From an uncultured Pelagibacteraceae bacterium (lineage in GTDB: Bacteria > Pseudomonadota > Alphaproteobacteria > Pelagibacterales > Pelagibacteraceae), in assembly GCA_902578115.1 (NCBI GenBank), contig CACHBR010000004.1, forward strand, positions 1-64,000: a DNA stretch of 64,000 nucleotides, written 5' to 3'. The translations under genes and the position numbers were made by a program. Positions 41,872-60,329 of this stretch are shown here, in pieces. A model generated the notes under the pieces. The model was given only the letters and a program-made list of their open reading frames with translations, made no database searches and was not told where the DNA came from. Position 1 is the first letter of the stretch. Every line of letters begins with the position of its first letter.

Positions 41872-42336
41872 ATGTTTTTGTCAAGTTACGAGAACAAATT
41901 AGACAAAAAGGGAAGGGTGTCAGTGCCATCTAGTTTTAGAGCTTATCTAAATTCTATGGGTTATAATGGATTTATTACATATCCTTCCTTTAATCATTCA
42001 GCATTAGATGGTTGTGCACAAGATAGAATTGAAAAATTATCAGAAAGCATCGATTCTCTTGGTCCATTCGAAGACAAAAGAGATTATTTTGCTACTTCTG
42101 TTTTGTCGGAGAGTGTCAATCTGAATTTTGATAGTGAGGGAAGAGTATCTATACCTGAAAAATTATTACAGCATGCAAAAATTAAATCCAATATAGTTTT
42201 CGTTGGATTAGGCAAAGTCTTTCAAATGTGGGATCCAAAATTATTTACAAATTTTAAATCAATAGCTAGAAAAAAATCTTATTTAAATAGATCTGCGCTT
42301 AAGTGGGACAATAAATTTAAAAAGGAGGGTGTATGA
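41872..42336 (+). CDS. mraZ: Transcriptional regulator MraZ
   Basis: FLSSYENKLDKKGRVSVPSSFRAYL; LNFDSEGRVSIPEKLLQHAKIKSNIVFVGLGKVFQMWDP. Confidence 0.96.
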   Translation: MFLSSYENKLDKKGRVSVPSSFRAYLNSMGYNGFITYPSFNHSALDGCAQDRIEKLSESIDSLGPFEDKRDYFATSVLSESVNLNFDSEGRVSIPEKLLQHAKIKSNIVFVGLGKVFQMWDPKLFTNFKSIARKKSYLNRSALKWDNKFKKEGV

Positions 42337-43811
42337 CAATAAATATTGGTGGTGGAGAATTAAAAGAACTTAAACCAAGAATTTTAGTAATGGGCGTTGG
42401 CGGCGCTGGTGGAAATGCAATTAATGCAATGATTGAAGATGGTATGCGAGGTGTAGAGTTTGTAGCGGTAAATACAGATGCACAAGATCTTAAAAATAAT
42501 AAAGCTGATGCAAAAATTCAAATCGGAATGAATTTAACAAAAGGACTTGGTGCAGGTGCTAAGCACGACATTGGTCAAGCAGCTGCCGATGAATCGCTTA
42601 ATGAGATAGTAACATATTTACAAGGTGCTAATATGGTTTTTATAACTGCTGGTATGGGCGGGGGAACTGGGACTGGCGCATCACACGTAATCGCAAGAGC
42701 AGCAAAAGAATTAAATATTCTTACTGTTGGAGTAATAACCCTTCCTTTTTCATATGAGGGACCAAAAAGAATGAGAAGAGCTCATGACGGTTGGGCTCAT
42801 TTAAAAAAACATCTTGATGCATCTATAGTTGTTCCTAACCAAAATCTTTTTAAAATTGCTAATGAAGCAACTACATTTGAAAATTCTTTTTTACTATCGA
42901 ACAATGTGCTTAAACAAGGTGTAAGAAGCATTACTGACTTAATGGTTCGACCAGGTTTAATTAACTTAGATTTCGCAGATGTTGAAACAGTTATGAGTTC
43001 AATGGGTAAAGCAATGATGGGTACTGGAGAAGCTGAAGGAGAAAATAGAGCTTTAGCAGCAACCGAGTCAGCTTTGAACAACCCTTTAATTGATGATTAT
43101 TCCCTAAAAGGTGCTAAGGGGCTATTAGTAAATATTACTGGCGGTGATGACATTAAATTATTCGAAGTTGATCAAGCAGTAAATAAGATCAGATCGGAAG
43201 TTGATCCTGAAGCTGAATTAATATTTGGAGCAATTAAGGATGAGAGTTTAAGTGGAAAAATGAGAGTTTCAATTGTTGCAACAGCTTTAGACGGAGAAGC
43301 TCCTGAGACAAGGTCTGTAGTTAATATGGTGCATAGAATTAATAATAGAAACTATGGTTACTCCGAAAGTAATTTTGCTACAGGTAGTAATAACATTCCT
43401 GCTTCACCTAGTTTAGATTCTATTCAAGGCGCGACAGCTTTAAAATTAGATGACGAAATAAAAACAGAACAAGAAACTATAAATGAGAATAAACAGGAAA
43501 TAAATACCCAGACAAATTTGGATTCCGGAATATCTCTTGATAGTGCTTCTTATTTTGAAAATAACCTTAACCAAGAACAAACTCATAAAGATGAGGTACA
43601 AGAGGAAGTAATAATTGACGATATTTCTATTTATGAAGAAAAGCCTATTGAAAAACCAGAGATGAATTCTATTGAAGAAGAAGGTTTTCCCCAGTTATTT
43701 TCCGATGAAGCAAAAAACAAAACATCATCGGAAAATAACAATAGCGAAGATATGAAAAACGAGGAAGAAGAATTTGAAATACCTGCGTTTTTACGTAAAC
43801 AGAAATTTTAA
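42333..43811 (+). CDS. ftsZ: Cell division protein FtsZ
   Basis: LVMGVGGAGGNAINAMIEDGMRGVEFVAVNTDAQDL; AGMGGGTGTGASHVIA tubulin signature; C-terminal peptide FEIPAFLRKQKF. Confidence 0.98.
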   Translation: MTINIGGGELKELKPRILVMGVGGAGGNAINAMIEDGMRGVEFVAVNTDAQDLKNNKADAKIQIGMNLTKGLGAGAKHDIGQAAADESLNEIVTYLQGANMVFITAGMGGGTGTGASHVIARAAKELNILTVGVITLPFSYEGPKRMRRAHDGWAHLKKHLDASIVVPNQNLFKIANEATTFENSFLLSNNVLKQGVRSITDLMVRPGLINLDFADVETVMSSMGKAMMGTGEAEGENRALAATESALNNPLIDDYSLKGAKGLLVNITGGDDIKLFEVDQAVNKIRSEVDPEAELIFGAIKDESLSGKMRVSIVATALDGEAPETRSVVNMVHRINNRNYGYSESNFATGSNNIPASPSLDSIQGATALKLDDEIKTEQETINENKQEINTQTNLDSGISLDSASYFENNLNQEQTHKDEVQEEVIIDDISIYEEKPIEKPEMNSIEEEGFPQLFSDEAKNKTSSENNNSEDMKNEEEEFEIPAFLRKQKF

Positions 43812-43824
43812 GTTTTAAGGCAAG

Positions 43825-44838
43825 ATGAAAAATTTTTCATCTCCCCAACACATATCACATTATCCTGTAATGTTGGATGAGGTTCTAAAAATATGCAATC
43901 CTATTAATGGGGGAGATTTTATAGATTGTACATTTGGATATGGAGGATTTAGTAATGCGATATTATCATATCCAAAAACAAAAGTCATTGCGCTAGACAG
44001 AGATATTCAAACAAAGAAATATGCGGAAAAAATTAAAAAAAATTACAAAGATCGTTTTTCTTTTTATAATAAAAAATTTAGTGAATTATCAAAAAATATT
44101 AATACAAAAAAAAAATTTGATTTCATAATTTTTGATCTTGGAGCATCAAATATGCAAATTCTAAATTTAGATAGAGGTTTTTCTTTTAATTCTAAAACAA
44201 GTATTGATATGAGAATGGGTTTAAATTCAATTTCAGCAAATGAAGTTATAAATAGTTATAGCCAACAAACTTTAAACGATATAATTAGACTTTTCGGAGA
44301 CGAAAAAGAAAGTTTTAAAATATCAAAAAATATAATAAATGAGAGAAAAAAATCACCAATATCATCAAGTGTTGATTTAGCTGGAATTATAAAAAAAAGT
44401 AAAAAAAAAGATTTTAATAAAAAAATAAATATTTCAACAAAGACTTTTCAAGCTTTAAGAATTTTTGTTAATAAAGAGTTTTCTGAATTAATAAATGGTC
44501 TTATCGAAGCTACTAAATTGATAAAGTCAGGTGGAAAAATAATTGTAATTAGTTTCCACTCTCTAGAGGATAAAATTGTGAAATTTTTTTTTACAAATTA
44601 TTCAAAAAACAAATCTAAAGTATCGAGGTATTTACCTGATTTATCAAAAGGTAATACTCTATTTGAAAATTATAAAAATAAAATAGTTATCCCAACTTCA
44701 GAAGAAATTATTAAAAATAAAGCATCTAGATCAGCTAAGTTAAGATACATAACAAGATGTAAAAATGATTTCTTTTATCCAAACGATTTAAAAAAAAAAT
44801 TTATAAAATATTTGGAGGTAGAGGATCGTTATGTTTAA
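43825..44838 (+). CDS. rsmH: 16S rRNA (cytosine1402-N4)-methyltransferase
   Basis: HYPVMLDEVLKICNPINGGDFIDCTFGYGGFSNAIL; FDFIIFDLGASNMQ; GGKIIVISFHSLEDKIVKFFF. Confidence 0.97.
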   Translation: MKNFSSPQHISHYPVMLDEVLKICNPINGGDFIDCTFGYGGFSNAILSYPKTKVIALDRDIQTKKYAEKIKKNYKDRFSFYNKKFSELSKNINTKKKFDFIIFDLGASNMQILNLDRGFSFNSKTSIDMRMGLNSISANEVINSYSQQTLNDIIRLFGDEKESFKISKNIINERKKSPISSSVDLAGIIKKSKKKDFNKKINISTKTFQALRIFVNKEFSELINGLIEATKLIKSGGKIIVISFHSLEDKIVKFFFTNYSKNKSKVSRYLPDLSKGNTLFENYKNKIVIPTSEEIIKNKASRSAKLRYITRCKNDFFYPNDLKKKFIKYLEVEDRYV

Positions 44839-45154: not shown

Positions 45155-46872
45155 AAAAAATACCAAAAAATCAAAACCAAAGGAGTTTTTATTTTAATGA
45201 ATATAACCAAAATTTATTTAATGAGAAAAAAAATAATAATTTAAATATAAATCAAGATAGAGTGTATGTACTTTTTTTTATATTTTTTTGTTTAATATTT
45301 ATATTTGCCGTAAAAATCTTCTTCGTTTCTCTTAAAACTTATGATTCAGAAAATTATTTGAAAAGTTATAATAATTTTAAACCATTACGAAATGATATTG
45401 TAGATAGGAACGGAGATTATATTGCCAGGAATATTCCAGTTTATCATGTAGCAATAAAGCCAAACTTAATTAAAGATAAAAAAAAATTTATTATTAAACT
45501 TAAGTTATTCGATACAACACTTGATTATAAAAAAATTGAAAATAAATTAAAAAAAAACAGTTATTTTTATTTGAAAAAAAATCTCACATTAGATGAAAAA
45601 AATAAATTTTGGTCATTAGGTGAAAAAGGTTTAATTTTTGAGACTACTCAAACTAGAATTTATCCCCATAAAAATTTATTTAGCCATGTTATAGGTCAAA
45701 TTGATATAGATAATAATGGAATTTCTGGAATAGAAAAATTTTATGATACCGAACTCAAAAAAAATGATAATCAATCAATTCACTTATCTTTAGACACAAA
45801 TTTACAATATTTGATAAGAGAGGAACTGCTTAAATCTATTTCAACTTTTCAATCAAAAGGAGCAGCAAGTCTTTTGATGGACATTAATACTGGTGAAATA
45901 TTATCTTTAATTTCTTTACCTGATTATAATCTTAACTCAAGACAAGATTTAAAAGACAAAAATTTTACAAATAAAATAACAAAAGGTGTTTTTGAACTAG
46001 GTTCTATTTTTAAAACATTTACTTTAGCTTTAGCCATTGAGGATGATTTATATTCTCCAAGCACAATTATTAAAAATATACCTGATAAAATTCAATGTTC
46101 AAAATTTACAATAAATGAGCATGATGAAATGCCAAGTGATCTGACTTTAAAAGAAATTTTAGTTAGATCTTCTAATATTGGAACTATCAAAGTTGCTAGG
46201 AGTTTGGGTGAAGACAAACTTAGAAATTTTTTAGAAGATTTAAATTTATTAAATAAAATTAATTTAGAATTAGATGAAATTGGATCCCCATTAAAATTTT
46301 TATGGAATAAGTGTAAGTTAGAAACAGTATCATACGGTCATGGAATAACTACTACCCCTTTACAGGCAGCATCAGCATACGCATCAATATCTAATGGTGG
46401 CGTAGTTGTTAATCCAACACTTATAAAAAATAAAACTATGAATTCTAAAACAAAAAGGATTGTAAGTTTAAAAACTAGCAAAAATATAAATAATATGTTG
46501 CGAGAGGTCGTAGTTAGTGCAGATGGAACTGCGTCGTTAGCTGAAGTCAATGGTTATTATGTTGGAGGAAAAACTGGAACAGCAAATAAGAATATAAATG
46601 GTGAATATACCTCAAAAAAATTAACATCTTTTATTTCTGTTTTTCCAACAAACAATCCTGAATACTTATTATTAACATTAATAGACGAACCTAAACCAGC
46701 ACCTGAGCTTGTTTACAATTATAGAGGAAAGAAAATTTCAGGAATACACAGGAATGAGTCCGGTTGGAATTCTGCTTACGTTGCTGGCAAAATTATAGAG
46801 AAAATTGGTCCTATTTTAGCCATAAATAAAAACGATTTTTATGACAACTATGTTGTTAAAAAATCTGATTGA
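45151..46872 (+). CDS. ftsI: Peptidoglycan D,D-transpeptidase FtsI (PBP3)
   Basis: Active-site GVFELGSIFKTF (SxxK), SSN, GGKTGTANK. Confidence 0.95.
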   Translation: MKKIPKNQNQRSFYFNEYNQNLFNEKKNNNLNINQDRVYVLFFIFFCLIFIFAVKIFFVSLKTYDSENYLKSYNNFKPLRNDIVDRNGDYIARNIPVYHVAIKPNLIKDKKKFIIKLKLFDTTLDYKKIENKLKKNSYFYLKKNLTLDEKNKFWSLGEKGLIFETTQTRIYPHKNLFSHVIGQIDIDNNGISGIEKFYDTELKKNDNQSIHLSLDTNLQYLIREELLKSISTFQSKGAASLLMDINTGEILSLISLPDYNLNSRQDLKDKNFTNKITKGVFELGSIFKTFTLALAIEDDLYSPSTIIKNIPDKIQCSKFTINEHDEMPSDLTLKEILVRSSNIGTIKVARSLGEDKLRNFLEDLNLLNKINLELDEIGSPLKFLWNKCKLETVSYGHGITTTPLQAASAYASISNGGVVVNPTLIKNKTMNSKTKRIVSLKTSKNINNMLREVVVSADGTASLAEVNGYYVGGKTGTANKNINGEYTSKKLTSFISVFPTNNPEYLLLTLIDEPKPAPELVYNYRGKKISGIHRNESGWNSAYVAGKIIEKIGPILAINKNDFYDNYVVKKSD

Positions 46873-49690
46873 TAACTTAAATTCTAAAATTAGTAATTTA
46901 AAGATTAGAAAGATATCAGCAGATAGTAGAAAAATTCAAAAGGGTGATTTATTTGTTTCTATAAAAGGAAACAAATTTGATGGTAATAAGTTTATTGATC
47001 ATGCAATTTTAAAAGGAGCAAAAGTTGTAGTTTATTCAGGATTACTAAAGAAAAAATATAACAATATCACTTACATCAAAACAAAAAATACTAGAGATAA
47101 ACTCGCAGAAATTTCATCAAAATACTTCAAAAAAAAACCAAAAAATATTATTGCTGTTACAGGTACAAATGGTAAGACATCAGTATCAGATTTTTTTCAC
47201 CAAATTTTTACACTGAATAATAAACCCGTAGGTCTTCTTGGAACCTTGGGGTTTAAAAAAAATAATAATTTAAAAAAAAGACAATTAACTACTTTAGATT
47301 CATTAAATCTTCACAAAGATCTAGAAGAAATGAAAAAATCAAAAATAGACAATGTTATTATTGAGGCATCAAGTCATGGTCTTATTCAAAAAAGACTAAA
47401 TTTTTTAAATATTAAATCAGGGATTTTTACTAATTTAAGCCATGATCACTTAGATTATCATAAAAATATGAAAAATTATTTTTCAGCAAAGTTAATTTTA
47501 TTTAAAAAATTACTTAAAAAAAAATCTACAATTATTACAGACTCAGAAATTAAAGAATATCGAGTTTTTGAACGATTGCAAAAAAAGAGAAATCTAAACT
47601 TACAAAGTATAGGGAATTTTGGAAATACATTTAAAATTTTAAATCATAGAATTTTTAATAATTACCAGTTAATTAAAATCTTATATAATAAAAAAAAATA
47701 TAATTTAAAAATAAATTTAATTGGATCAATTCAAATAAAAAATTTATTCATGGCTATCTTGGCTTGCAAAATTTGCGGTTTAAGTATCCAAAATATATTT
47801 AGAGTTATAAATAAAATTCAGAGTGTAAATGGAAGGTTGGAATTTATAAGATCTTTACCAAATCAATCAAAGATTTTTTTAGATTATGCTCATACACCTG
47901 AAGCATTAAAAAATGCAATAATCTCCCTTGAGGAACACTTTAATAAAAAAATAACAGTCGTTTTTGGATGTGGCGGTGAAAGAGATGAGTCAAAAAGAGA
48001 AAAAATGGGAAAGATAGTAAATAAATTATGTGAAAAAATTATAATTACCGATGATAATCCAAGAAATGAAAATCCATCTAAAATTAGAAAACAAATTATT
48101 AAAGTAATAGATAAAGGGAAGGTAAGAGAAATACCTGGTAGAAAAAAAGCAATTACTTTTGCATTAAAAAATTCTAGTCCATATGAAATTATTTTAGTGG
48201 CCGGAAAAGGTCATGAAAATTACCAAAACCTGGGAAAAAAAGAAATTTTTTTTAGTGATAAAATAAAAATTAAGCAAGTTCATTTAAGGAAAATAAGCAA
48301 TAAAAAAAATCAATTAAAATATAATGATATTTTAATAAATAAAATATTAAAAAATAAAAGAGAAAACCTTTTTTCTGGTGTTTCAATAAATTCAAATACA
48401 ATTAAAAAAAATAATTTATTTATTGCAATTAAAGGAAAAAATAAAGATGGGCATAATTTTTTAAATCAGGCAATTAGTAAAGGTGCTAATTATTGTGTTG
48501 TTTCAAAAAACGTCAAAAAAAGATTTAAACCGATTAAAGTAAAGAATACTTTCAATTTTCTAAAAACTTTCTCCAAAAAGAAACGGGAGTTTTCCTCAGC
48601 AAAATTTGTAGCTATTACAGGAAGTGCTGGTAAAACATCATTAAAATCAATGTTAGGAAATTTATTAAAATTATATTCAAAAACTTACTTTTCACCACAA
48701 TCATACAATAATCACTATGGGGTTCCGTTAAGTTTATCTAATATTGAACCAGAGCACAATTTTGGAGTATTTGAAGTTGGAATGAATAAATTTAATGAAA
48801 TTAATAAACTTTCTTCAATTCTAAAACCAGACGTAGGTATTATTACAAATATTTCTGAGGCACATTTAGAAAACTTTAGACACATTTCTGATATAGCTAA
48901 AGCAAAAAGTGAAATTATTCATAATATTAAAAAAAATGGGCTAATAATTCTTAATCGTGATGATAAATTTTTTAATTTTCACCAAAATATAGCTAATAAA
49001 AAAAATATTCGAATTAAATCCTTTGGATATTCCAAAAATGCTGATTTTAGATTTTTAAATACCAAGAAAATTAAAAATAATTTATTTCTTAATGCATCTT
49101 TAGAAGGAGAGAAAATATCTTTACCAATTAATAATTCTAACAAAAATTTTATTATGAATATACTTTGCTGTTTAGCAGTTTTAAGCGATTTTAATTTAAA
49201 TACTAAAAATATTCAAAAGTTTTTTAAAAATCAAAAACCTTTAAAAGGGAGAGGAAAAATTAAAAAAGTAAAAAGGTTTGGTAAAACTTTTTATTTAATT
49301 GATGAAAGTTATAATGCAAATCCTTTGTCAATTAAAACAGCTTTAGAAAATTTTTCAAATATAAGAAAAAATAGAAAGAAAAAGTATTTCTTTTTTGGTG
49401 ATATGATGGAATTAGGAAGCAAATCACATATTTACCACAAAAAAGTTACAAATTTTATTAATAAAAGTGATATTGATAAAACATATGTTTATGGAAAAAG
49501 GGCATCTAAAGCATATAAATTTATTAATAAAAATAAAAGAGGTGAAATTATTAATAATTTTGAGAAATTCGATAAGGTGATATCAAAAATTTTAAAAAAT
49601 GGAGATTATTTAATGATAAAAGGATCAAACGCAACAAAACTTTATACAGTTTCTGATAATTATTTAAAAGGTCAACAAAATGCTTTATAG
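46841..49690 (+). CDS. MurE-MurF fusion (UDP-MurNAc-tripeptide synthetase / MurNAc-pentapeptide synthetase)
   Basis: 949-aa uninterrupted ORF. N-half [29 protein letters not shown] (meso-DAP-type DNPR motif), [10 protein letters not shown] (MurE). C-half [46 protein letters not shown] (MurF). Join near 48300. An alternative ATG at 46850 is possible. Confidence 0.93.
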
Positions 49691-56545: not shown

Positions 56546-57478
56546 TTGTATAAAAAAAAAAAAATTTTAGTTATATTAGGTGGAACATCAAAAGAAAGAG
56601 CCATTAGTATAGACACGGGTCTGGCTTGTATTAAAGCATTAAAAAAATTAAAATATAAAATTATAAAATTTGACCCTAAACTTGCCCCGATCAGTGATAT
56701 TAAAAAAAATAAAGCAGATATAATTTTTAATGCACTACATGGAAAAGGTGGTGAAGATGGAACAATTCAAAGTTTTTTTGAATACATAGGATTACCTTAC
56801 ACTCACTCTGGCCCTATTTCATCTATGCTTGCTATGAATAAGTATTTTTCTAAAAAAATATTTATAAAGAATAAAATTATTACACCTAAATATTTTTATT
56901 TAAATAAAATAAATTTCTCAAATATAGACCTAAAAAAAGAAATAAAAAAAAATAGACTTAAATTTCCAATAGTAATAAAACCAAACCAGGAAGGTTCTAG
57001 TATTGGTGTAAATATCTGTAAAAATTATAACTTTTTAAATAGTTCATTTAGAAAACTTAGAAAAAAATACGACGATTTAATATTTGAAAATTATATACCT
57101 GGAAAGGAGATACAAGTTGCAAATATTGGCAATAATGCTATTGGCGCTATAGAACTTCAACCTAAAAGAAAATTTTATGATTATGATGCTAAATATAAAA
57201 AGTCATCTAATACAAGACACATTATGCCCGCTGATATTTCAAAAAAAAAATATAAGGAAGTCTTAAAAATATCTGAGAAAGCCTATAAAATTTTAAAATG
57301 CAAAGGTATTGCAAGATGTGATTTTAGATTTTACAAAGACAAATTTTATTTATTGGAAGTAAATACACAACCTGGCATGACTAGTTTATCTTTAGTTCCA
57401 GAAATAGCAGCATATGAGAATATTTCCTTCACAAAACTTGTTAAATGGATGGTAAATAACGCAAGTCTTAATAGATGA
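56546..57478 (+). CDS. ddl: D-alanine-D-alanine ligase (TTG start)
   Basis: ILVILGGTSKERAISIDTG; NALHGKGGEDGTIQSFFEYIGLPYTHS; YLLEVNTQPGMTSLSLVPEIA. Confidence 0.94.
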   Translation: MYKKKKILVILGGTSKERAISIDTGLACIKALKKLKYKIIKFDPKLAPISDIKKNKADIIFNALHGKGGEDGTIQSFFEYIGLPYTHSGPISSMLAMNKYFSKKIFIKNKIITPKYFYLNKINFSNIDLKKEIKKNRLKFPIVIKPNQEGSSIGVNICKNYNFLNSSFRKLRKKYDDLIFENYIPGKEIQVANIGNNAIGAIELQPKRKFYDYDAKYKKSSNTRHIMPADISKKKYKEVLKISEKAYKILKCKGIARCDFRFYKDKFYLLEVNTQPGMTSLSLVPEIAAYENISFTKLVKWMVNNASLNR

Positions 57479-58149
57479 AAAAAAAGAATATTTTTTTTTG
57501 GTTTTTTCTTTTTATTTTATTAACTACATTTTATTTTGATTTTAATAAAACTAAATTAGCAGAAACTTTTAAAATAAAAAAAATTGAGATCCATGGTGTA
57601 GAAAATGCAGATATAAATTTGTTAAATCTCAGATTAGAAAGATTTAAATATAATAACTTTTTTTTAATAAATCGAAGTCAAATAGCTTCTTCTATAATTG
57701 ATATTGATTTTATTAATAAAGTTTTAATAAAAAAAATATATCCTGATAAGGTTGAGATAAAAATAAAGGAACATAAGATTATAGGTATAATTATAAAAAA
57801 TAAAAATAAATATATTTTAAGTAAAGACGGAATAATTATTAAAAAATTTGATAAAAAATTTGAAACATTACCAATCATTTACGGAAAAGAAGCTCAAAAT
57901 TTTTTTCCTCAATTTTATAAATCTCTTAAAGAAACAAATTTTGATATTAATAAAATCGAATTTTTTAAATATTTTGATACAAGGCGGTGGGATATATTTC
58001 TCAAAAGTGGCAGACTAATCAAACTTCCTAGTAATGAAAATGATACTAAGCAATCTATATTCAAATTTATGTCAATTAGTAAAGACAAAAAATTTGATAA
58101 ATTTAAAATATTTGATTTTCGAGTAAAGAATCAATTAATAATAAAGTAA
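57475..58149 (+). CDS. ftsQ: FtsQ-like division protein (POTRA domain)
   Basis: N-terminal TM, IKKIEIHGVENADINLLNLRL POTRA-like start; between ddl and ftsA. Confidence 0.8.
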   Translation: MKKKNIFFWFFLFILLTTFYFDFNKTKLAETFKIKKIEIHGVENADINLLNLRLERFKYNNFFLINRSQIASSIIDIDFINKVLIKKIYPDKVEIKIKEHKIIGIIIKNKNKYILSKDGIIIKKFDKKFETLPIIYGKEAQNFFPQFYKSLKETNFDINKIEFFKYFDTRRWDIFLKSGRLIKLPSNENDTKQSIFKFMSISKDKKFDKFKIFDFRVKNQLIIK

Positions 58150-58155
58150 AAAACA

Positions 58156-59331
58156 ATGGATGAAAAATTAATCATAGAGTTAGACAATGATAAAATTAAG
58201 TATGCTGTTTTTAAAACTAATAAAGAACAGGATTATAAACTATTAAGAAATAAAATCTCAACAAATGCAGGAATTAAAAAAGGAAAAATTCTTGATTTTG
58301 AATACTCATCAAAAATAATAAGTAATGATCTTAATGAAATTGAAAAAAATGTTAACAAAGTTTTTAAAAGTATCTCCGTTGTTTTGAATCAAAAAGATGT
58401 ATTTTGTACAAACTTATGTGGTTTTAAAAAGTTAAATGGTTCAAAAGTTGAAAAGAGAGACCTGGACTTCATTTTAAATGAAGCGAAAAATTCTATTTCC
58501 AAAAACCAGAAAAATAATTCTATACTTCATATTTTGAATTCTAATTTTATTTTAGATAAAACAAAACAAGATAAAGTACCATTAAATATATTTGGAGACC
58601 ATTTGAGTTTACATATGACTTTTGTTTCTATACCAGATAATAATTTAAAAAATATTAAGGAGATTTTTAATAATAGTGATTTAAAAATTGATAGAATAAT
58701 TAGTAAACCTTTTGCTGAAAATATTAATTTACTTAATTCAAATAAAAAATTAAAAAATTTTATTTCAATAAATATTGGAAATGAGCTTTCAACTATTACT
58801 TTATGTCAAGATTCTTCTCTTGTTTTCTTTAAAACTTTCCCATTTGGGTCCAATTCAATTTATAATGATATAAATCAACTTTGCTCTTTATCGAAAAATG
58901 AAGCAAAAACAATTATTGAAAATTTAGAAAATAATAAATCAATATATATAGATAGGAAATTTTTTGTTAATTCAGATTATAAAAAAATAAGTTTAAATCA
59001 TTTTAAAGAAATAATTAATGTTAGAATAAAAGAAATGTTAAATTATACTTTTAATAGCAATAAAGATTTAATTTATTATAAGAAAAAAATTGGAAAAATA
59101 AATATTTTTTTTGAAGATATTGATATTTACAAAAATTTGGGTGAAATCTTTAAAAGCCACTTAGATCTTAACGATCAAAAAATTCTTATAGAAAATTTCA
59201 CTGACGATGACCTCGGGACACTTTATGGAGCAGCTGAATTAATATTTAAAGGTTGGCCCAATGAGGCGTTACCTTTCTCTATTAAAAAAAAGTCAATAAT
59301 ATCTGGTTTTTTCGATCGTTTTTTTAGCTAA
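58156..59331 (+). CDS. ftsA: Highly divergent FtsA-like protein
   Basis: Position ftsQ-X-lpxC; FtsA-like blocks (VFFKTFPFGSNSIYNDINQLCSLSKNEAKTIIEN; SKPFAENINLLNSNKK); C-terminal amphipathic SIISGFFDRFFS. Canonical nucleotide-binding motifs not recognisable. Confidence 0.75.
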   Translation: MDEKLIIELDNDKIKYAVFKTNKEQDYKLLRNKISTNAGIKKGKILDFEYSSKIISNDLNEIEKNVNKVFKSISVVLNQKDVFCTNLCGFKKLNGSKVEKRDLDFILNEAKNSISKNQKNNSILHILNSNFILDKTKQDKVPLNIFGDHLSLHMTFVSIPDNNLKNIKEIFNNSDLKIDRIISKPFAENINLLNSNKKLKNFISINIGNELSTITLCQDSSLVFFKTFPFGSNSIYNDINQLCSLSKNEAKTIIENLENNKSIYIDRKFFVNSDYKKISLNHFKEIINVRIKEMLNYTFNSNKDLIYYKKKIGKINIFFEDIDIYKNLGEIFKSHLDLNDQKILIENFTDDDLGTLYGAAELIFKGWPNEALPFSIKKKSIISGFFDRFFS

Positions 59332-59396: not shown

Positions 59397-60329
59397 ATGT
59401 GGGACAAATATCAAAAAACAGTAAATAGTGAAACGAACTTTTCAGGAATCGGATTGCACTCTGGTGTAAAAGTTGACGTTACATTAGTTCCAGGTAATTC
59501 AAATTCAGGAATAGTTTTTAAGAGAACAGATTTAGAAAAAGACAATGAAATTGTTGCTAATTTTAAAAATGTATCTTCAGCAAAATTGTGTACTAAAATT
59601 GAGAATAATCATGGTGTAAGTGTTTCAACTATAGAGCATTTACTTGCAGCGTTTTATGTGTGTGGAATTGACAATATCATTGTAAATTTAAATGGTCCCG
59701 AAGTCCCTATTATGGACGGTTCAGCGAAAGAATTTGTAAAGATTATAAATGAGGTAGGATTAAAAACACTTGAAGGCAAAAGGAAGTTTGTAAGAGTCAA
59801 AAAAAGTGTTGAATTAAAAAAAGAAGATGGGAGAACAATAAGTGCAAAACCGTCAAGCCAAACTTTTGATGTAAAGTTTACATTAAATTACAAAAAAAAC
59901 CCTTTAATTAAAACACAAATAAATAAAATAAATTTTGCGGAAAAAAATTTAGAAGACATTGTAGTTGCAAGGACTTTCTGCTTATACGAAGATATAGAGA
60001 TGATAAAATCTATGGGACTTGCCAAAGGTGGAAGTTTAGATAATGCCATAGTTGTTAGAGGCAATGAAGTTTTAAATAGGGGTGGACTTAGATCTAAAAA
60101 AGAATTTGTAAATCACAAAATACTCGACCTAGTCGGAGATTTCATGCTTTCAGGAACTAGATTAATTGGTTCGGTAGAATGTTTTCACGGTGGTCATGCA
60201 TTGACTATTGAATTCTTAAAAAAGATTTTTTCTAATAAAAATAACTATGAAGTTGTAGAAAGTCATTCTTTATTCTCTAATGTAAGAAAAATCATTCCTC
60301 TTAATAAGAGATTTGCTGTAAACGCTTAA
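59397..60329 (+). CDS. lpxC: UDP-3-O-acyl-N-acetylglucosamine deacetylase
   Basis: SGIGLHSGVKVDVTLVPG; STIEHLLAAFYVCGIDNIIVNLNGPEVPIMDGSAKEFV; NHKILDLVGDFMLSG. Confidence 0.97.
   Translation: MWDKYQKTVNSETNFSGIGLHSGVKVDVTLVPGNSNSGIVFKRTDLEKDNEIVANFKNVSSAKLCTKIENNHGVSVSTIEHLLAAFYVCGIDNIIVNLNGPEVPIMDGSAKEFVKIINEVGLKTLEGKRKFVRVKKSVELKKEDGRTISAKPSSQTFDVKFTLNYKKNPLIKTQINKINFAEKNLEDIVVARTFCLYEDIEMIKSMGLAKGGSLDNAIVVRGNEVLNRGGLRSKKEFVNHKILDLVGDFMLSGTRLIGSVECFHGGHALTIEFLKKIFSNKNNYEVVESHSLFSNVRKIIPLNKRFAVNA

Follow-up and report, generated by a model that had tools for sequence, protein, structure and literature searches.

Results

The window is a 64-kb, AT-rich stretch of DNA from a genome of 0.96 Mb in 23 contigs (completeness 82%). 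It encodes an FtsA orthologue whose three nucleotide motifs, as read from alignment to E. coli FtsA, are all degenerate. It is likely, at a probability of roughly 0.7, that this protein works independently of ATP, as a tether between FtsZ and the membrane and as an IC scaffold, and, as part of the same reading, no longer binds ATP in the canonical way. The original prediction had proposed an ATP-independent tether; the degenerate pocket, the purifying selection on the gene and the retention of the IIB residues and membrane tail speak for this proposal, but the tie that it drew to the relocation of ftsZ does not hold. The nearest named relative is the uncultured Pelagibacteraceae single-cell genome AG-916-O22, whose LpxC is 81% identical. 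Below, g1 denotes the genus of the window, g8 its sister genus and f2 the sister family in the same order. The features are collected in Table 1.

Table 1. Features of the window that bear on FtsA and FtsZ (residue numbers of the window protein unless E. coli is given).
Feature	Positions	Strand	Description
ftsZ	42333..43811	+	492 aa; between mraZ (41872-42336) and rsmH (43825-44838)
FtsZ C-terminal peptide FEIPAFLRKQKF	43773..43808	+	intact
ftsQ	57475..58149	+	upstream of ftsA; synteny
ftsA orthologue, ATP motifs lost	58156..59331	+	391 aa; profiles, predicted fold, synteny
Former phosphate-1 (P1) region LIIELDNDKIK	58168..58200	+	Gly16 to Asp and Thr17 to Asn (E. coli); acid and Lys kept
IC (SHS2) domain	58402..58626	+	most conserved part in g1, pn/ps 0.078; borders approximate
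Lobe II (IIA+IIB)	58750..59211	+	half absent from Pelagibacter mini-FtsA; borders approximate
Former phosphate-2 (P2) region FISINIGNELSTITL	58759..58803	+	Asp210 to Asn (E. coli)
IIB residue Asp238 (E. coli D242)	58867..58869	+	invariant in all groups
IIB RxxE, Arg290 and Glu293 (E. coli R300, E303)	59023..59034	+	invariant in all groups; putative FtsZ docking
Former adenosine motif region, contains FFED	59092..59127	+	E. coli G336 to Phe319, 18/18 in g1
C-terminal amphipathic membrane helix KSIISGFFDRFFS	59287..59328	+	sequence, predicted helix
lpxC	59397..60329	+	downstream of ftsA; synteny

Identity and predicted fold of the window FtsA

The gene order at the locus is ddl, ftsQ, ftsA, lpxC, and the ORF occupies the position between ftsQ and lpxC/ftsZ that is expected of an FtsA orthologue in the dcw cluster. 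In profile comparisons, it matched TIGR01174 (E 2.9e-35, 122 bits) under the curated equivalog cut-off of 175.85 and PF14450 (23.8 bits) under the gathering cut-off of 31.8, although its SHS2_FTSA score of 32.9 bits is over the cut-off of 25.4. The solved FtsA structures 7q6g and 7q6d match it at E ~5e-13. The AF2 prediction shows the two-lobe FtsA fold (pLDDT 82.9, pTM 0.81), the canonical fold being favoured in this prediction because canonical FtsAs were contained in the input alignment. In a Foldseek comparison with this model, the top 19 matches were all FtsA entries (best E 2.6e-26, TM 0.74-0.76). The SHS2_FTSA score, and at the level of prediction AF2 and Foldseek, point to an actin-like fold in which IC (SHS2) replaces IB. 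The ORF is an FtsA orthologue, and the family membership presupposed by the original prediction is confirmed by profiles, structures, predicted fold and flanking genes alike. As a family query, PF14450 was dropped, since it mostly found a second actin-like gene (344-357 aa, ~40 kb from ftsA), which is taken as MreB from its length and position.

Degeneration of the nucleotide pocket

In the alignment to E. coli FtsA, the P1 segment I-E8-L-D10-N11-D-K13 of the window corresponds to L-E14-I-G16-T17-A-K19, the P2 segment N206-I-G208-N-E-L211 to D210-I-G212-G-G-T215, and the adenosine-site residues F318-F319-E320 to T335-G336-G337. In E. coli numbering, E14, K19 and G212 are kept, G16 is replaced by D, T17 by N, D210 by N and T215 by L, and at the adenosine site T335 and G336 are both replaced by F and G337 by E; the canonical motif set (P1 DxG[ST], P2 DxGGGT, adenosine GG) is not matched. 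The original prediction had described P1 as eroded, P2 as lacking a D-I-G-G-G-T-T-D-like motif and the adenosine region as devoid of GG. The statements on P2 and the adenosine region agree with the alignment; at P1, the Gly and Thr are gone, but the erosion is less complete than had been implied, because the acid and the Lys persist.

The degenerate state is found throughout the close relatives in g1 and g8. Among the distinct FtsAs of g1 and g8 (18 and 14 sequences, respectively), neither D210 nor G336 survives in any sequence (0/32 for each), whereas D210, G212 and G336 are kept in 37/37 outgroup FtsAs from E. coli and other proteobacteria. The G336 position holds Phe in 18/18 sequences of g1 and Ile, Leu or Phe in 14/14 of g8. 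In a tree of LpxC+Ddl+LigA+BamD (100 loci, rooted on f2), g1 and g8 fall together, with genera g11 and g13 adjacent. Since the motifs DxG[ST] (P1), DFG (P2) and GxGS (adenosine site) are all kept in genera g4, g6, g7 and g12, and the P1 Gly persists in g11 and g13 with Asn or Asp in place of the Ser/Thr, the final pocket loss is placed on the stem of g1+g8, and it is a trait of this clade. The GGGT part of P2 is already xxK throughout Pelagibacteraceae. In f2 (L305-L313), DIR stands at P1 in place of DIG, and DIQ or DIN is frequent at P2, which reads as a second, separate partial erosion of the pocket.

Selection and the site of constraint

Averaged across the 14 closest pairs of g1, FtsA has a pn/ps of 0.19, with 0.078 in IC and 0.25 in lobe II; the values of LpxC and FtsQ are 0.145 and 0.36. 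The g1 ftsA is under purifying selection. In groups that retain the motifs, pocket identity exceeds IC identity, with ratios of 1.31 (gammaproteobacteria), 1.43 (alphaproteobacteria) and 1.48 and 1.73 (other Pelagibacteraceae); the ratio is 1.09 in f2, 0.70 in g1 and 0.55 in g8. Judged by these ratios, constraint has shifted from the pocket to IC.

Frameshifts in ftsA occur in a few g1 assemblies, at L135 (G009), L051/L136 (G143, AG-916-O22-like) and L149 (G142), mostly in lobe II. At L135, ftsA alone is broken; at L136 and L149 the neighbouring ddl is broken as well, so that sequence error is likely there.

FtsZ docking residues, membrane tail and possible partners

The IIB residues D242, R300 and E303 (E. 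coli numbering) are invariant in every group compared, g1 and g8 included; R300 is presumably the key FtsZ-docking Arg of IIB. The FtsZ C-terminal peptide is intact, and both prerequisites of a tether, the IIB docking residues and this peptide, are present in the window genome. Deletion of 2B in FtsA abolishes the FtsZ interaction, and 1C recruits FtsN/FtsQ (PMC4281207); the FtsZ peptide forms salt bridges with FtsA 2B (PMC5256927); and in E. coli and Vibrio, FtsN is bound at the IA-IC cleft of FtsA, which makes lateral contacts via IC and longitudinal contacts via IIA-IIB (PMC7613929). In g1 and the majority of g8, the FtsZ peptide reads FEIPAFLRKQKF, whereas most other genera have LEIPAFLRRQ[KT]N, a difference that is possibly a co-change with FtsA. 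The Pelagibacter peptide is LEIPAFLRRQKN.

The C-terminal amphipathic helix, which had been described as kept, is indeed retained: the stretch SIISGFFDRFF is present in the window FtsA and conserved in g1. The hydrophobic moment of the window copy, 0.52, is reached by 13% of shuffles and is not exceptional by itself, standing out more in most relatives, and the helix is predicted at residues 381-390 with low pLDDT. Neither of the alternative tethers SepF and ZipA was detected in 19 genomes, which leaves FtsA as the one recognisable tether of the candidates tested. A search for FtsN via the SPOR domain found only RlpA-like lipoproteins with a lipobox (L314-L321).

Position of ftsZ

The order mraZ-ftsZ-rsmH, away from ftsA, was found in the sampled loci of g1, g8, g4, g6, g7, g11 and g5 (L188-L213; at L197 and L198 the automatic upstream-neighbour call beside ftsZ chose another ORF), g5 being Pelagibacter as inferred from named loci of the same kind. 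In f2, ftsZ lies directly upstream of an rsmH-like ORF. The pocket erosion had been supposed to coincide with the departure of ftsZ from the side of ftsA. This is contradicted by the same ftsZ site in genera with intact P1 and adenosine motifs, which makes the move older than the erosion and independent of it. Elsewhere in the window, positions 46841-49690 hold one 949-aa ORF that appears to be a MurE-MurF fusion.

A short form of FtsA in Pelagibacter

At the same locus, an ftsA of 222-244 aa (about 234) was found in 28 of 60 g5 loci (L053, L054, L056, L057, L060, L061, L062 and most of L214-L239), which is no frequency estimate because the 60 loci were chosen from search output and not randomly. 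In this mini-FtsA, N-terminal IA, IC and a return to IA are followed directly by a C-terminal helix and a tail of the type GFFEKFFxLFS; the stretch that begins with the P2 strand and ends with IIA is missing, and with it the whole IIA+IIB lobe with the ATP and FtsZ sites. The model of the L057 protein (pLDDT 85.2, pTM 0.80) has FtsA structures as its best matches (4a2a, E 1.5e-11, lobe I). With dN/dS of 0.09-0.28, mini-FtsA is under purifying selection. The ftsA products of other g5 lineages are 368-394 aa long, and the majority carry [DE]xG[ST] at P1. On mini-FtsA, Pfam and NCBIfam gave no match or sub-threshold matches.

That lobe II is encoded apart in these genomes was rejected: profile A6 found it elsewhere in 0/13 mini genomes, whereas the long-form Pelagibacter controls were positive in 4/4 cases (E 1e-41 to 1e-53), as was the window (7e-10), although a very diverged copy could escape this search, since the profile also misses the eroded lobe II of g8. 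The mini form may have arisen once or several times: the flanking-gene tree scatters the minis among long forms, and a tree of the N-terminal part of FtsA has two mini groups with weak support. In one complete Pelagibacter genome (G038, L238:2400-3162), a frameshift at a T/A run breaks the mini ftsA in two. No description of FtsA pocket loss or of the mini form in SAR11/Pelagibacter was found in the open-licence literature, and mini-FtsA is apparently an undescribed form of FtsA.

Discussion

The need of FtsA for ATP is debated, because hydrolysis is weak or undetectable. In the tether and scaffold that we propose for the window FtsA, the FtsZ peptide would still dock on IIB, and the C-terminal tail would hold FtsA-FtsZ at the membrane. 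The lobes would be permanently joined without nucleotide, and the bulky Phe/Ile/Leu at position 336 may plug the adenine site. Any self-assembly would rely on IC contacts and on clustering by FtsZ instead of ATP-gated filaments, and IC, the part under strongest selection, would be the functional centre. In Pelagibacter, a similar loss of the need for ATP may have ended in the deletion of the whole second lobe.

Since the presumed FtsZ site is deleted in Pelagibacter, FtsZ tethering by FtsA is perhaps dispensable in SAR11, and tethering may not be what g1 retains. SAR11 FtsA might even be untethered from FtsZ, as a membrane-bound IC signalling module with an FtsN-like partner, and lobe II might be decaying toward the mini form. 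This would fit the mini-FtsA, which keeps IA+IC and the tail under selection without lobe II and the FtsZ site, as well as the faster evolution of lobe II than of IC in g1 and the concentration of g1 frameshifts in lobe II. We nevertheless consider it unlikely, in view of the 100% conservation of R300, E303 and D242 in g1 and g8 while the rest of lobe II drifts, the non-neutral pn/ps of lobe II and the SPOR search, which yielded RlpA-like lipoproteins and no FtsN.

A pocket that is substituted yet working, with other residues coordinating ATP or a different nucleotide, appears somewhat less probable still. Within g1, the P1 Glu is invariant and the Lys common, and Phe319 and Glu320 are fixed or nearly so and Asn206 mostly, so that remodelling for another ligand is conceivable. 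However, in this one genus the P1 Gly16 position holds D/A/S/N/G/E and the P2 Gly212 position D/G/E, neither the catalytic Asp nor either adenine-site Gly is left, conservation of the pocket has fallen below that of IC, and g8 carries other letters at the same sites. A pseudogene or sequencing artefact, to which the few frameshifted g1 copies (G009, G142, G143/AG-916-O22) might point, is scarcely credible against 18 intact distinct g1 sequences with the pn/ps given above and a ddl that is broken too in G142 and G143, a sign of poor sequence.

SAR11 are tiny ocean bacteria and among the most numerous on Earth. We lean slightly towards the broader view that they gave up the actin-like ATPase cycle of FtsA, in the pocket in g1+g8 and with the whole ATP/FtsZ lobe in many Pelagibacter, which would leave a membrane-anchored IA-IC module. 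If so, some of the most abundant bacteria divide without the FtsA nucleotide switch, and those with mini-FtsA also without the known FtsZ-FtsA contact, since mini-FtsA retains the half responsible for binding FtsN and lateral partners and drops the half for ATP and FtsZ. A natural clade without the pocket but with the IIB docking residues, IC and the tail would separate tethering from nucleotide switching. The ATP question is directly testable, because the window FtsA and mini-FtsA are small, expressible proteins; profile libraries mostly miss the latter.

Comparison with known systems

The window FtsA shares with the canonical FtsAs of E. coli, Vibrio maritimus and Thermotoga maritima (TIGR01174; 7q6d, 7q6f, 7q6i, 1e4g, 4a2a) the position after ftsQ, the IA-IC-IIA-IIB order, the predicted fold, the IIB RxxE and the C-terminal amphipathic helix; it differs from them in the absence of the P1 Gly/Thr, the P2 Asp and the adenosine Gly-Gly, and in its score under the TIGR01174 cut-off. 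The FtsA of Deinococcus radiodurans is similar in that it has no ATPase activity yet acts on FtsZ, but its polymerisation depends on ATP, which it binds (PMC4281207), whereas the binding motifs of the window FtsA are gone. PilM (PF11104; 5eou, 2ych; Foldseek E ~1e-17) also resembles actin and has an IC-type subdomain, to which a membrane protein is bound by its cytoplasmic tail; PilM belongs to a different system and is less similar to the window protein than FtsA in every comparison. The mini-FtsA of Pelagibacter (L057, L060, L061; 234-236 aa) has the locus, IA+IC and the amphipathic tail in common with the window FtsA and lacks IIA/IIB, whereas the window FtsA has both lobes.
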